A stretch of 64,000 bases of DNA from Streptomyces sp. XM4193 (GTDB lineage Bacteria > Actinomycetota > Actinomycetes > Streptomycetales > Streptomycetaceae): positions 1-64,000 of the forward strand of contig NZ_JALLGK010000003.1 in NCBI RefSeq assembly GCF_023072595.1. Direction: 5' to 3'. Of the stretch, positions 54,959 through 62,327 are shown in pieces. The notes under the pieces were generated by a model that saw only the letters and a program-made list of their open reading frames with translations, was not told the origin of the DNA and did not search any database. The stretch's first letter is position 1. The number at the start of each line of letters is the position of its first letter. A program made the position numbers and the translations under genes.

Positions 54959-55159
54959 TCGGCCGCTCCCGAATCGGTGGCACGCTCATGAACGCGCTCT
55001 GGGCTGGGTAGTGCAGGCTCAGGCAGTCCGATGCCTTAGATTCAGTTCCGGATTTTGTTTCTGACGGCAGGTCGTGCGGGGCCCGTCGTCGTGCGGCACA
55101 CCGTCCGGCACAGGCCGTACGGCGACGACGGGATGACGACGAAAAGGGGCACGGGACCG

Positions 55160-55612
55160 ATGGACGCGGTGGACAGACAGCTCATCCAGGCGTTGCGCGA
55201 GAACGGCAGGGCCTCGTACGCGGAGTTGGGCCGACTCGTCGGGCTCTCCGGGCCGAGTGTCACCGACCGCATCAACCGGCTGGAGGCCGCGGGCGTCATC
55301 ACCGGTTACCGCGCGACGGTCGACGCCGCCTCGCTGGGGCTCGGGGTCACCGCGCTGATCGGCATCCAGCTCAGCGACGCCACCGACCACGAGGAGGTCG
55401 CGGGGCGGCTGGAGTCCCTGGGCGAGATCGAGGACTGCTGGTTCATCGCGGGGGACGACTCGTACATGCTCAAGGTCCGGGCGAACAACGTGGACGGACT
55501 GCAGAGCACGATCCGCAGGCTCTCCCAGACGAAGGGCGTTTCGCGCACCCGCACCACGATCGTGCTCTCCACCAAGTGGGAGAACCGCGTCGGCGAGCGT
55601 CCCGAGGACTGA
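55160..55612 (+). CDS. Lrp/AsnC-family transcriptional regulator
   Basis: 150 residues. Helix-turn-helix (about 3-55): MDAVDRQLIQALRENGRASY, then GLSGPSVTDRINRLEAAGVI. The C-terminal RAM domain holds SLGLGVTALIGIQL and the typical GEIEDCWFIAGDDSYMLKV, which binds amino acids. It lies between ubiX and mqnE, in the same direction and with its own short promoter gap. Orthologs sit at this place in S. coelicolor, as I recall. Whether it regulates menaquinone genes is not known. ATG 55160 is used; ATG 55133 is possible. Confidence 0.88.
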   Translation: MDAVDRQLIQALRENGRASYAELGRLVGLSGPSVTDRINRLEAAGVITGYRATVDAASLGLGVTALIGIQLSDATDHEEVAGRLESLGEIEDCWFIAGDDSYMLKVRANNVDGLQSTIRRLSQTKGVSRTRTTIVLSTKWENRVGERPED

Positions 55613-58218: not shown

Positions 58219-58250
58219 TTGTGCTTCCACGAGTTCCGCAGTAAAAGTTT

Positions 58251-58271
58251 GGCTTTGAGTGCATCAAAGCC
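58251..58271. promoter_or_regulatory. Inverted repeat before the leader peptide
   Basis: GGCTTTGA-GTGCA-TCAAAGCC is a perfect 8-bp inverted repeat 21-41 bases before the leader ORF. It lies where a promoter would be and may be a binding site for a sulfur or cysteine regulator, or a transcript hairpin. Confidence 0.5.
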
Positions 58272-58291
58272 TGGGTGTTAGCGTGGAGGCC

Positions 58292-58429
58292 ATGACAAAC
58301 GCAGCCGTACGACCCGCACCGGCGAGCGCGACGCTCGTCGCGCGGCTGCACGTCGACCTCTGCCGCTGTGTCGTCGCGGCATGTCCCCCCTGTACCGGCC
58401 GGGCCCGACCCGGCTGTCGCCGCGGCTGA
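58292..58429 (+). CDS. Cys-rich leader peptide (putative cysteine-responsive attenuator)
   Basis: 45-residue ORF starting at ATG 58292, with GGAGG just upstream. The core RLHVDLCRCVVAACPPC matches the RxHVDLxR pattern of the small 'putative leader peptides' that precede sulfur and cysteine genes in Streptomyces. Cysteines fall at 24, 26, 31, 34 and 42, so ribosome stalling at Cys codons could sense Cys-tRNA. It lies 210 bases upstream of a TcyP/DctA-family symporter. No obvious alternative hairpin pair was resolved in the gap. Confidence 0.72.
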   Translation: MTNAAVRPAPASATLVARLHVDLCRCVVAACPPCTGRARPGCRRG

Positions 58430-58639
58430 CGCAGCCGGTCGGCGCGGACACACCGGTCAGCCGGGTCTCCGCCGCCGACCGTCTCCCGCAGTCCGGCCGA
58501 CCGCGTCCCGGCTGCCCCCGCGCCGGACACGCACCCGGCACGCCCGCCGCGCAGCGCCGCTCGGCCCCCGCCCGCGCCTCGACGGCGCACCGCTGTTCTC
58601 CCCACCGCCCGTCTCCTTCCACGCACCCGGAGTGTGCCC

Positions 58640-60088
58640 GTGTCCTCCTCGTCCCCGACGTCCGCTCCCAGACCCGCCGAATCGCGCGGTCTGCTCGCAC
58701 GCATACCCAAGGTGCCGTTCTGGGCCCAGATCCTGGCCGGTCTGGTGCTCGGCGTGCTGCTGGGCTGGCTGGCCCGCAGCGGTGACATCTCCTGGCTCGG
58801 CACCGCGCTGGAGCGGATCGGCGGCACCTTCGTCCAGCTGCTGAAGCTGGCGGTGGCGCCGCTGGTGTTCTTCGCCATCGCCATCTCCATCACCAATCTG
58901 CGCAACGTCTCCAACGCGGCCCGGCTCGCCGGTCGCACGCTGCTGTGGTTCCTGATCACCTCGCTGATCGCGGTCGGTGTCGGTATCGCCATCGGCCTGC
59001 TGAACAACCCGGGCTCGGGCAGCGAGCTCGACCCCAAGAGCGGTACGGCGCCCGAGACTTCGGGCTCCTGGCTGGACTTCCTGACCGGCATCATCCCGGA
59101 GAACGTGATCACGCCGTTCACCGAGCTGAACGTGCTGCAGATCGTGTTCATGGCCGTGGTGACCGGTGTCGCCGCGCTCAAGCTCGGCGCCAAGGCCGAC
59201 CCGCTGCTGACCTTCGGCGAGTCCGTGCTCGCGCTGCTGCAGAAGGCGCTGTGGTGGGTCATCCGCCTCGCCCCGCTGGGCACCCTCGGTCTGCTCGGCA
59301 ACGCGATCAACGAGTACGGCTGGGGCCTGATCGGCGACTACGCGACCTTCACCCTCGACGTCTACATCGGCTGCCTGCTGATCCTCTTCGGTGTCTACCC
59401 GCTGCTGCTGGCACTGGTCGCCAAGGTCAGCCCGCTGCAGTTCTTCCGCGGTGCCTGGCCCGCGATCCAGCTGGCCTTCGTCTCGCGCTCCTCGGTCGGC
59501 ACGATGCCGGTCACCCAGAAGGTCACCGAACGCCTCGGTGTGCCGAAGGAGTACGCCTCCTTCGCCGTGCCGTTCGGCGCGACGACCAAGATGGACGGCT
59601 GCGCGGCGATCTACCCCGCGCTGGCCGCGATCTTCGTCGCGGAGATCTTCGAGGTGAGCCTCGGCATCCAGGACTACCTGCTGATCGTCCTGGTGTCGGT
59701 CATCGGCTCCGCGGCGACGGCCGGTCTCACCGGCGCGGTGGTCATGACGACCCTGACCCTCTCCACCCTGGGCCTGCCGCTCGAGGGCGTGGGCCTGCTG
59801 CTCGCCATCGACCCGATCCTGGACATGATCCGCACCGCCACCAACGTGGCCGGGCAGGCGGCCGTACCGGTGCTGGTCGCCGCGCGCGAGGAGATCCTCG
59901 ACCTGGAGACGTACAACTCGGCCAAGAGCTTCGACATCGAGGCCGAGAGCGGTGCCGACGAAGCCGGCTCCCCGGGCGGCTCCGACGGCCGGTCCGACGG
60001 AGGCGCGGGCGGCGGTTCCGACAGCGGTTCGGACGGCGGTACGGGCGGGCCCTCGGGCTCCCGGCCCGATCCGGTTCCGGCTTCCTGA
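58640..60088 (+). CDS. DAACS-family symporter, probable cystine transporter (TcyP-like)
   Basis: 482 residues from GTG 58640 (CCGGAG seven bases upstream). About eight transmembrane helices plus two re-entrant loops of the dicarboxylate/amino acid:cation symporter family. The first loop has FVSRSSVGTMPVTQKV. The second has PFGATTKMDGCAAIYPA (Cys321). SSxGTxPVT and GCAxIYPA resemble the cystine carrier TcyP more than DctA or glutamate carriers, as far as I recall those sequences. The late helix has AIDPILDMIRTATNVAGQA. The C-terminal ~45 residues are Gly/Ser/Asp-rich. The upstream Cys-rich leader supports cystine or cysteine-linked uptake. Confidence 0.87.
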   Translation: MSSSSPTSAPRPAESRGLLARIPKVPFWAQILAGLVLGVLLGWLARSGDISWLGTALERIGGTFVQLLKLAVAPLVFFAIAISITNLRNVSNAARLAGRTLLWFLITSLIAVGVGIAIGLLNNPGSGSELDPKSGTAPETSGSWLDFLTGIIPENVITPFTELNVLQIVFMAVVTGVAALKLGAKADPLLTFGESVLALLQKALWWVIRLAPLGTLGLLGNAINEYGWGLIGDYATFTLDVYIGCLLILFGVYPLLLALVAKVSPLQFFRGAWPAIQLAFVSRSSVGTMPVTQKVTERLGVPKEYASFAVPFGATTKMDGCAAIYPALAAIFVAEIFEVSLGIQDYLLIVLVSVIGSAATAGLTGAVVMTTLTLSTLGLPLEGVGLLLAIDPILDMIRTATNVAGQAAVPVLVAAREEILDLETYNSAKSFDIEAESGADEAGSPGGSDGRSDGGAGGGSDSGSDGGTGGPSGSRPDPVPAS

Positions 60089-60141: not shown

Positions 60142-60188
60142 AACAGCACGGCGCCCGCCGGTCAACCTCCGGCGGGCGCCGTGCTGTT
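60142..60188. terminator. Very strong terminator after the symporter
   Basis: Perfect 20-bp stem (AACAGCACGGCGCCCGCCGG / CCGGCGGGCGCCGTGCTGTT) with a TCAACCT loop. Confidence 0.94.
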
Positions 60189-60371
60189 GTCTGTGCGTTG
60201 CCGCGGGGTTTCGATCAAGCACGCGCGGGACCGCCGGTCGTTCCGTGCCCGTCCGGTGAAAGTCCCGCCCCGTCCCCTCCCGGGTCTGGCCAAATACGCG
60301 CGCGCACGAGACCCTACTCCTCAGTAATTGTTGAAACTCTGTCAACAGCACGAGCGTTGGAGGGAGGCCGT

Positions 60372-62327
60372 ATGTCCGCGCAACGTTCGCCCGCGGGCCA
60401 CGACCCGAACCAGGCCGCCCTCGACCTCCCGGAAGTGCTTCGCCGCCCCGACCTCCGCCAGATCGCCGGCGTGGTGCGCGAGGCCGAACTGGCGCCGCTC
60501 GCCCCGCCGGTGCTGGAGGGCTCCCTCGCCGACATCCCGTTCCTCAACGCGGCCGAGGCGCCCGCCGACGTGGTGTACTCCCGCAAGGACGAGACCGGCC
60601 ACTGGTACGACGTCACCTCCGGCGAGTTCGCCGCCGAAGTCCTCGCGGTGGCCAAGGGGTTGATCGCCAGCGGGCTCCAGCCGGGCGACCGGCTCGCGAT
60701 CATGTCGCAGACCCGCTACGAGTGGAACCTGCTCGACTTCGCCGCCTGGTCCGCCGGCCTGATCACCGTCCCGCTCTACCCGGGTTCCTCGGGCTCGCAG
60801 ATCCGCACCGTCCTCCAGGACGCCTACGTCTCCGGGATGGTCGTCGAGGACGTCGAGGGCGTGCGCGAGGTCAGCGCGCTGCGCGGCGCCGTACCGGATC
60901 TGGAGCACCTCTGGCAGCTGGACAACGGCGCGGTCGGCCAACTCGCCGCCGCCGGCCGGAGCATCCCCGACGCCCTGGTCCACGAACGCCGCCGGGCCCA
61001 GCAGCCCGACACCGTCGCCACCCTCATCTACACCTCCGGCACCACCGGCCGTCCCAAGGGCTGCGTAGTCACCCACGCCAACTTCTTCGCCGGCGTCGAC
61101 AACGCCGTGAGGCTGCTCGACCCGGTGTTCCGCGGCGTCTCGGGCCAGCCGGCCAGCACGCTGCTCTTCCTGCCCCTCGCCCACGTCTTCGGCCGGATGG
61201 TCGCCGTGGGCTGCCTGCGGGCGCGCGTACGACTCGGCCACCTCGCCGGCATGCAGGCCGAGCAACTCCTCGCGGATCTGCGCACCTTCCGGCCCACCTT
61301 CCTGCTCGCCATCCCGTACGTGCTGGAGAAGGTCTTCAACACCGCGCGCGCCACGGCGGAGGAGATGGGCCGGGGCTCGTCCTTCGACCGGGCCGCCAGG
61401 ATCGCCTCGCGCTGGGGCGACGCCTGGAGCCAGAGCCTCAAGGGCGAGGGGAAGGGCCCCGGTTTCGGTCTGCGCGCCGCCCGCGGGGTGTACGACTCGC
61501 TGGTCTACAAGCGCATCCGTGCGGCGCTCGGCGGCAACGTCCGCCATGTCATCTGCGGCGGTTCGCCGCTCGGCGAGCGGCTGAGCGCCTTCTACGCAGG
61601 CGCCGGCATCGAGGTGTACGAGGGGTACGGCCTCACCGAGACCACCGCCGCCGTCACCGTGACCCCGCCGCTGCGCCCCAAGCCCGGTACGGTCGGCTGG
61701 CCGATGCCGGGCATGGCCGTCCGGATCGCCGACGACGGCGAGATACTCCTGCGCGGCGGCCAGGTCTTCTACGGCTACTGGGACTCCCGGCAGCAGACCG
61801 TGCCCAAGGAGACCGACGACGAGGGCTGGTTCGCCACCGGCGACATCGGCGCGCTCGACGACGAGGGCTATCTGACGATCACCGGCCGCAAGAAGGATCT
61901 GCTGATCACCTCCGGCGGCAAGAACGTCGCGCCCGCGCCCCTGGAGGACTGGCTCCGCTCCCATCCGCTCATCGACCAGGTGCTGGTCGTCGGCGACAAC
62001 CGCCCGTACCTCACCGCGCTGGTCACCCTGGACCCCGAGGGCCTCGCGCACTGGCGGCGGATGCACAAGAAGGACGATGTGCTGCTGCACCGGCTGGTGG
62101 ACGACGCGGAGCTGCGGGACAACATCCAGCAGGCGGTCAACGAGGCGAACAAGCTGGTCTCGCGCGCCGAGTCCATCCGCCGCTTCGCCGTCCTCCCGCT
62201 CCAGTTCACGGCCGAACACGGCCATCTCACACCGACGTTGAAGCTGCGCCGGGCGGCGATCCTGCGCGAGTTCTCCCGCGACATCGCCGACCTCTACGCG
62301 CGCGACGGCCTCGACTCGGGCGACTGA
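60372..62327 (+). CDS. Long-chain acyl-CoA ligase / AMP-dependent synthetase
   Basis: 651 residues from ATG 60372 (AGGGAGG upstream). AMP-forming ligase of the FadD15-like type. The P-loop reads IYTSGTTGRPKGC, followed by EGYGLTETTAAVTV, ATGDIGALDDEGYLTITGRKKD and the C-terminal lysine region TPTLKLRR. It activates fatty acids to acyl-CoA in the cytoplasm. A weak TTGTTGA...TCAACA dyad near 60327-60346 may be regulatory. The gap before it is otherwise plain. Confidence 0.93.
   Translation: MSAQRSPAGHDPNQAALDLPEVLRRPDLRQIAGVVREAELAPLAPPVLEGSLADIPFLNAAEAPADVVYSRKDETGHWYDVTSGEFAAEVLAVAKGLIASGLQPGDRLAIMSQTRYEWNLLDFAAWSAGLITVPLYPGSSGSQIRTVLQDAYVSGMVVEDVEGVREVSALRGAVPDLEHLWQLDNGAVGQLAAAGRSIPDALVHERRRAQQPDTVATLIYTSGTTGRPKGCVVTHANFFAGVDNAVRLLDPVFRGVSGQPASTLLFLPLAHVFGRMVAVGCLRARVRLGHLAGMQAEQLLADLRTFRPTFLLAIPYVLEKVFNTARATAEEMGRGSSFDRAARIASRWGDAWSQSLKGEGKGPGFGLRAARGVYDSLVYKRIRAALGGNVRHVICGGSPLGERLSAFYAGAGIEVYEGYGLTETTAAVTVTPPLRPKPGTVGWPMPGMAVRIADDGEILLRGGQVFYGYWDSRQQTVPKETDDEGWFATGDIGALDDEGYLTITGRKKDLLITSGGKNVAPAPLEDWLRSHPLIDQVLVVGDNRPYLTALVTLDPEGLAHWRRMHKKDDVLLHRLVDDAELRDNIQQAVNEANKLVSRAESIRRFAVLPLQFTAEHGHLTPTLKLRRAAILREFSRDIADLYARDGLDSGD

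Follow-up and report, generated by a model that had tools for sequence, protein, structure and literature searches.

In the window, that is, the whole stretch of 64,000 nucleotides of Streptomyces sp. XM4193 DNA that was analysed, a short cysteine-rich reading frame precedes a gene for a carrier of the DAACS family (SDF, PF00375), and both genes lie on the forward strand together with the regulatory elements described below. The leader peptide ORF (58292-58429) comprises 45 codons, starts with ATG and encodes MTNAAVRPAPASATLVARLHVDLCRCVVAACPPCTGRARPGCRRG, which contains an RLHVDLCR motif and five Cys codons, at 58361, 58367, 58382, 58391 and 58415. Its stop codon is separated by 210 bases from the GTG start of the carrier (58640-60088; 482 amino acids), and upstream of the leader is an inverted repeat with 8 bp arms (GGCTTTGA-GTGCA-TCAAAGCC; 58251-58271, arms 58251-58258 and 58264-58271). 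These features are exactly as described in the original prediction. The ORF finder gives a carrier start at 58634, but GTG 58640 is the most likely start because the upstream GTG lies directly behind the Shine-Dalgarno (SD) sequence. Downstream of the carrier, a likely terminator hairpin can be read from the sequence at 60147-60190 (CACGGCGCCCGCCGG...CCGGCGGGCGCCGTG), and a terminator scan reports a terminator-like site at 60170-60186. A search of Rfam returned nothing relevant at the leader, and matches to mir-598 within the carrier gene were dismissed as chance.

The ORF finder places the leader start at GTG 58259; this GTG precedes the conserved -10 box (TAGCGT, 58279-58284), which makes ATG 58292 the likelier start. 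This box belongs to a promoter (58255-58284) with a -35-like TTGAGT (58255-58260), an 18-nt spacer and a conserved GTGTTA context, which a generic sigma-70 scan misses. ATG 58292 follows the -10 box by 7 nt, a spacing of the kind described for leaderless mRNA in actinobacteria. The leader mRNA is therefore likely to be leaderless and to start at this ATG. The -10 box recurs at leaderless spacing at 94 of 103 distinct loci, with the GTGTTA-box directly before the start codon.

Overlapping the -35 region is a candidate operator (58243-58269) of three TCAAAG/CTTTGA half-sites 11 bp apart, the first of which is degenerate in the window (TAAAAG). It takes in most of the inverted repeat, which amounts to two thirds of the three-half-site motif; the repeat singled out in the original prediction is thus present, as part of a promoter motif and not of the attenuator discussed below. 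The two-site core of the motif is found at 89 of the 103 loci. In each of six genomes searched a near-exact match occurs only at this promoter, and further matches in these genomes have two mismatches and are at control level, giving no other targets. The motif is probably the operator for a regulator.

Conservation of the leader was assessed in an even sample of the genus comprising 81 Streptomyces genomes, of which 57 have the carrier (56 of them matching at E 1e-200 or better, and one, in G041, in a match broken into pieces). An H(V/I)DLxR leader is positioned directly upstream of the carrier, at the same position, at 52 of the 57 loci, is degenerate at two (L015, L019) and is absent from three (L031, L072, L073). 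Most of the named relatives (GTDB genomes) also retain the motif, some with one-residue variants such as LDVDLCR, LYVDLCR, HVGLCR or HVDLCL, and two have no leader (L115, L176). All five of these loci without the leader keep the three-half-site promoter motif, and in L072, L115 and L176 the start codon of the carrier itself is found at leaderless distance, so that in L072 the carrier is read directly from its own ATG by the same promoter. Since the operator motif is kept at loci that lack the leader, it would represent a separate control. Among carriers of other actinomycete families, YVDLRR...CPA is encoded upstream in L095 and L096, RRHVDLLRTCTALC in L097 and RRHVDLRRQASAIC in L098, and L099-L102 have the carrier without a leader. 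The carrier thus need not be under cysteine control, since the leader is degenerate or missing at some five of the 57 Streptomyces loci and missing from L099-L102.

Where the leader is present, it changes in the manner of a coding sequence. Across the 103 distinct loci, variability in a 12-codon core is 0.026, 0.031 and 0.126 at codon positions 1, 2 and 3, and the ratio of synonymous to nonsynonymous codon changes is 154:59, where single changes made at random would give 31:77, in a comparison that is uncorrected for kinship. Cys accounts for 32% of the codons after HVDL at these loci, with two to eight Cys per leader. With the same proviso about relatedness, the coding type of the codon changes means that the leader is translated, or selected as a coding sequence; it is both conserved, as had been predicted, and under coding selection. 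The idea that it is a functionless chance ORF could appeal to its shortness and to the score of the window's copy against the NCBIfam model NF042934 (cis_reg_atten, 'putative leader peptide'), 20.3 bits with a cut-off of 27, but is close to refuted by the conservation of position, codon-level selection, promoter and Cys richness over 103 loci. One locus (L057, G002 contig C124) has an internally duplicated leader, RCMSAICRCMSAPC, with eight Cys codons after HVDL.

Leaders of relatives score 21-29 bits against NF042934, most of them 21-27, and the cut-off is passed by one of the seven carrier leaders tested, with 29.2 bits; the family and these leaders have in common a small, Cys-containing upstream ORF with the RxHVDLCR core. 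The relatives' leaders also weakly match the Cys-rich mycobacterial family Ms4527A (NF042936). Like the probably leaderless ORF described here, the mycobacterial polycysteine leaders (Ms4527A; Ms5788A, NF042933) are leaderless short ORFs with Cys codons near the end, placed upstream of cysteine or sulfur genes, and their attenuation is described, in later papers citing the work, as dependent on cysteine supply. In contrast to these, the present leader precedes a DAACS carrier and has other pairing strands, and the match between the two is weak (13-22 bits of 45). The genome of the window contains six further NF042934-like sites that were read as leaders. The genes that follow them encode a ThiS/CysO-like protein and PLP enzyme (CysM-like), a sulfite/nitrite reductase, an NMT1-type ABC binding protein, a GST-like protein, a two-domain rhodanese (sulfurtransferase) and a cysteine dioxygenase-like protein, and it is plausible that five of the six leaders precede sulfur-metabolism genes, the GST-like gene being the exception. 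The association of RxHVDLxR Cys leaders with sulfur genes, on which the original prediction had relied, is upheld in this kinship and in the sister leaders, with scores mostly below the family cut-offs, and the comparisons support placing the leader with the actinobacterial Cys-leader peptides.

Two of the six sites have features of their own. At L043 (G000 contig C13, ~230061-233114) the gene behind the Cys leader is the cysteine dioxygenase-like one (CDO_I), with a rhodanese next in line; switching on cysteine breakdown during cysteine shortage would be senseless, so that this enzyme may have a different thiol as its substrate. At L041 (G000 contig C16, ~296311-299361) the leader before the GST-like gene, CPLLTCRRHIDLLRVAGAS, has its Cys codons ahead of an HIDL motif.

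For cys operons, upstream Cys leaders were predicted by Seliverstov et al. in 2005 (PMC1262725); such leaders were observed to be leaderless and occupied by ribosomes in 2015 (PMC4633059), and in M. smegmatis they have been reported to respond to cysteine (Canestrari et al. 2020, doi 10.1111/mmi.14498, cited in PMC9031893 and PMC9094748). This kind of attenuator is therefore already known. A literature search of incomplete coverage found no report of a Cys leader before a DAACS carrier; the proposed attenuator is thus of an established cysteine type, placed on a group of carriers for which that search gave no earlier example.

The scores of the carrier against the NCBIfam DctA, GltP and SstT models are all far under the cut-offs, DctA ranking best with 209 of 513 bits, and the sole other SDF protein of the genome is a true DctA (L037). 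In trees that included E. coli TcyP, DctA and GltP, cystine transporters annotated in plasmid records, GltPh and actinobacterial relatives, the carrier falls in a deep, separate clade (15 rows, support 100/99) that is mostly actinobacterial and includes one alphaproteobacterial plasmid copy from Ensifer (59% identity). Grouping the carrier with DctA is rejected (AU p 0.0004) and grouping it with DctA and GltP is weakly rejected (p 0.033), and the original prediction is borne out to the extent that the carrier does not belong with the dicarboxylate transporters. The best tree makes the carrier clade the sister of TcyP (79/93); with long branches at both ends, this relation is not conclusive and is best taken as a lead. 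The predicted TcyP type accordingly needs qualification: the carrier is placed beside TcyP, in a distinct clade outside it, with 34% identity to the E. coli protein.

The sister placement is supported by two shared features. A one-residue insertion in TM7, GC[AG], is present in 15/15 rows of the carrier clade and 6/6 rows of the TcyP group and in 0/17 others, which agrees with the earlier reading of the GCAAIYPA loop as TcyP-like, and a Pro after the TM8 acid ([DE]P) is common to both clades. TcyP symporters (E. coli YdjN and those of B. subtilis and C. jejuni, Cj0025c) are DAACS proteins with this insertion and a TM8 [DE]P..D..R pattern. The second loop cited in that reading, SSVGTMPVT, fares differently, as rows annotated TcyP read SSA(A/G), and unrelated members of the DAACS family can read SSVGTLP or SSSGTLP. 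Specific to the carrier clade, and without counterpart in TcyP, are a Lys at the position of GltPh N310 and a one-residue deletion in HP2. DctA, GltP and GltPh resemble the carrier as PF00375 proteins and in overall architecture, whereas they do not have the TM7 insertion. Residues equivalent to GltPh D394 and R397 are retained in the carrier, whereas DctA has Ser at 394.

These residues bear on the possibility that the carrier is an ordinary symporter of acidic amino acids or C4-dicarboxylates, with a leader serving general stress or sulfur economy. The retained R397 equivalent, which in GltPh binds the side-chain carboxylate, and the first rank of DctA among the models, despite a score so far under its cut-off, would fit that explanation. 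We consider it improbable given the rejected DctA grouping, the D394 equivalent, the separate genuine DctA in the genome and the sulfur genes behind five of the six other such leaders. On the best reading of the sequence evidence, this carrier, usually labelled 'dicarboxylate symporter', would take up cystine or a related sulfur compound. The claim that this label misleads is thus substantiated by the phylogeny for the exclusion of DctA, and cystine stays a probable substrate deduced from relatives. There is a precedent by analogy in C. jejuni Cj0025c, which was annotated as a dicarboxylate transporter, is 35% identical to B. subtilis TcyP and was shown to carry cystine (PMC8015009). Were the assignment to hold, a carrier of many Streptomyces that is filed under a dicarboxylate family name would be reassigned to cystine uptake.

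It could also be that the leader senses cysteine and the carrier imports S-sulfocysteine, a mixed cysteine disulfide, cysteine or a sulfonated acidic amino acid. The separation of the clade from TcyP, its own TM7 and HP2 features and the annotation of E. coli TcyP as cystine/sulfocysteine are in keeping with such a substrate, but the TM7 insertion and TM8 pattern held in common with TcyP favour cystine as the simplest choice, and we regard these other sulfur compounds as rather unlikely. Neighbouring genes of the carrier in other families revealed no sulfur link, and in one of them (L210) the carrier is near an aspartate ammonia-lyase-like gene.

Two plasmid-borne relatives may be mentioned in passing. 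The 59% identical Ensifer canadensis copy on plasmid pT173e (L188/L217, near 60305-61501) is beside an OsmC-like gene and was probably acquired by transfer. On a Streptomyces coelicoflavus plasmid (L195), a divergent SDF carrier adjoins a D-cysteine desulfhydrase gene and is a candidate importer of D-cysteine or a related compound.

RNA folding points to a link between the leader and the translation start of the carrier. In the window, the predicted minimum-energy structure pairs a strand overlapping the Cys codons (strand 2, 58365-58380) with a strand spanning the leader stop codon (strand 3, 58419-58435); in relatives, the equivalent of strand 3 is located 7-20 nt beyond the stop codon. The main clade shows 10-13 contiguous predicted pairs between the first Cys codons of the leader (TGCCGCTGTATG) and a strand past its stop codon, CATGCAGCGGCG, with 98% of cells paired as against 17-65% when the strands are slid; changes in this stem are consistent and one-sided, with no compensatory double changes. 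Alternatively, the downstream strand can fold into a hairpin with another strand (GCGGC/GCCGC), behind which is a C-rich segment that could base-pair with the SD sequence. Other clades have the same layout built from other sequences. At about ten loci the HVDLC strand is itself the predicted partner of the SD sequence and start codon, and in an alifold of 22 relatives it likewise pairs with this region.

The SD sequence GGAG (58629-58632) and the GTG start of the carrier (together 58629-58642), between which a TGTG(T/C)CC spacer is conserved in many relatives, are predicted to open when the Cys codons of the leader are covered. Over 52 loci, covering the HVDL-Cys codons makes this opening cheaper by a mean of 0.94 kcal/mol, compared with 0.05 in dinucleotide shuffles, and the gain exceeds 1 kcal/mol at 26/52 loci versus 3/52 shuffles (Wilcoxon p 6e-4, which is optimistic because the loci are related). 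The effect is modest overall and weak in the window itself, where the gain is 1.8 kcal/mol when covering begins at the His codon, and whole-leader positions at Cys 24, 34 and 42 yield about 1 kcal/mol. A strict ungapped test found the stem between leader and downstream region to exceed shuffles at only 21/52 loci, and a less strict test, in which duplex energies were computed between the entire leader and the intergenic region, gave no signal; the probable cause is that long duplexes with gaps carry no useful information in GC-rich RNA. According to this modelling, the SD site of the carrier would become accessible while a ribosome waits at the Cys codons.

The same Cys-sensing leader might instead act by premature transcription termination, either Rho-dependent or at a U-poor hairpin. 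A U-rich hairpin resembling a terminator follows the leader in some relatives (L019, GGACCTCCCGGCTTTTTT), and Rho has been proposed for the mycobacterial cys leaders (Seliverstov et al. 2005, PMC1262725). Against this, the terminator scan found no terminator-like site between leader and carrier in the window, a U run is present in few relatives and it is specifically the SD region that is predicted to open. Translation-level control is most likely, with termination as a live rival that we hold to be possible and distinctly the weaker candidate.

Collectively, these observations lead us to propose, as a probable scheme, that a cysteine-responsive attenuator with an SD-opening switch drives a cystine-type carrier and is joined by a second input from a regulator at the operator. 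RNA polymerase would start at the ATG of the leader itself, and the first ribosome would load on this leaderless mRNA and read the 45-codon leader. With sufficient Cys-tRNA, the ribosome would reach the stop codon and the Cys-codon strand would pair with the downstream strand, leaving the anti-SD strand, a role taken by the HVDL codons in some clades, free to close the SD sequence and start codon of the carrier, which is then off. When Cys-tRNA is short, the ribosome would wait at the proposed site formed by the HVDL codons (58349-58360) and the first four Cys codons (whole span 58349-58393), covering their strand, so that the alternative hairpin forms, the SD sequence opens and the carrier, most likely an importer of cystine or a close cysteine disulfide, is turned on. 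The second, independent input would probably be supplied by a regulator that occupies the three operator half-sites across the -35 box. Within this scheme the Cys-rich leader very probably gauges cysteine and switches the carrier on during shortage, and the control of the gene by cysteine availability, as originally predicted, appears well supported by comparison of the loci; we infer the translation-level switch, the substrate and the repressor. Firmicute TcyP is under CymR-type control, in contrast to the Cys leader on the carrier here. If the scheme is correct, it adds a transport gene to those actinobacterial genes whose expression follows the cysteine supply by means of a waiting ribosome.

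More tentatively, the conserved RLHVDL core that actinobacterial Cys leaders share may not be passive, its codons serving as an anti-SD RNA strand, its nascent peptide aiding the pause, or both. The motif, the Cys codons and the SD sequence of diverse sulfur genes might then form one common switch, to which a dedicated operator unique to one gene would be added here. Related species in which the leader is kept, degenerate or lost, with the operator kept throughout, would offer a clean system for studying how the HVDL motif works. As to the protein that might bind this operator, a gene for an Lrp/AsnC-type regulator (55055-55612) lies in the window about 3 kb upstream of the carrier and is a candidate.
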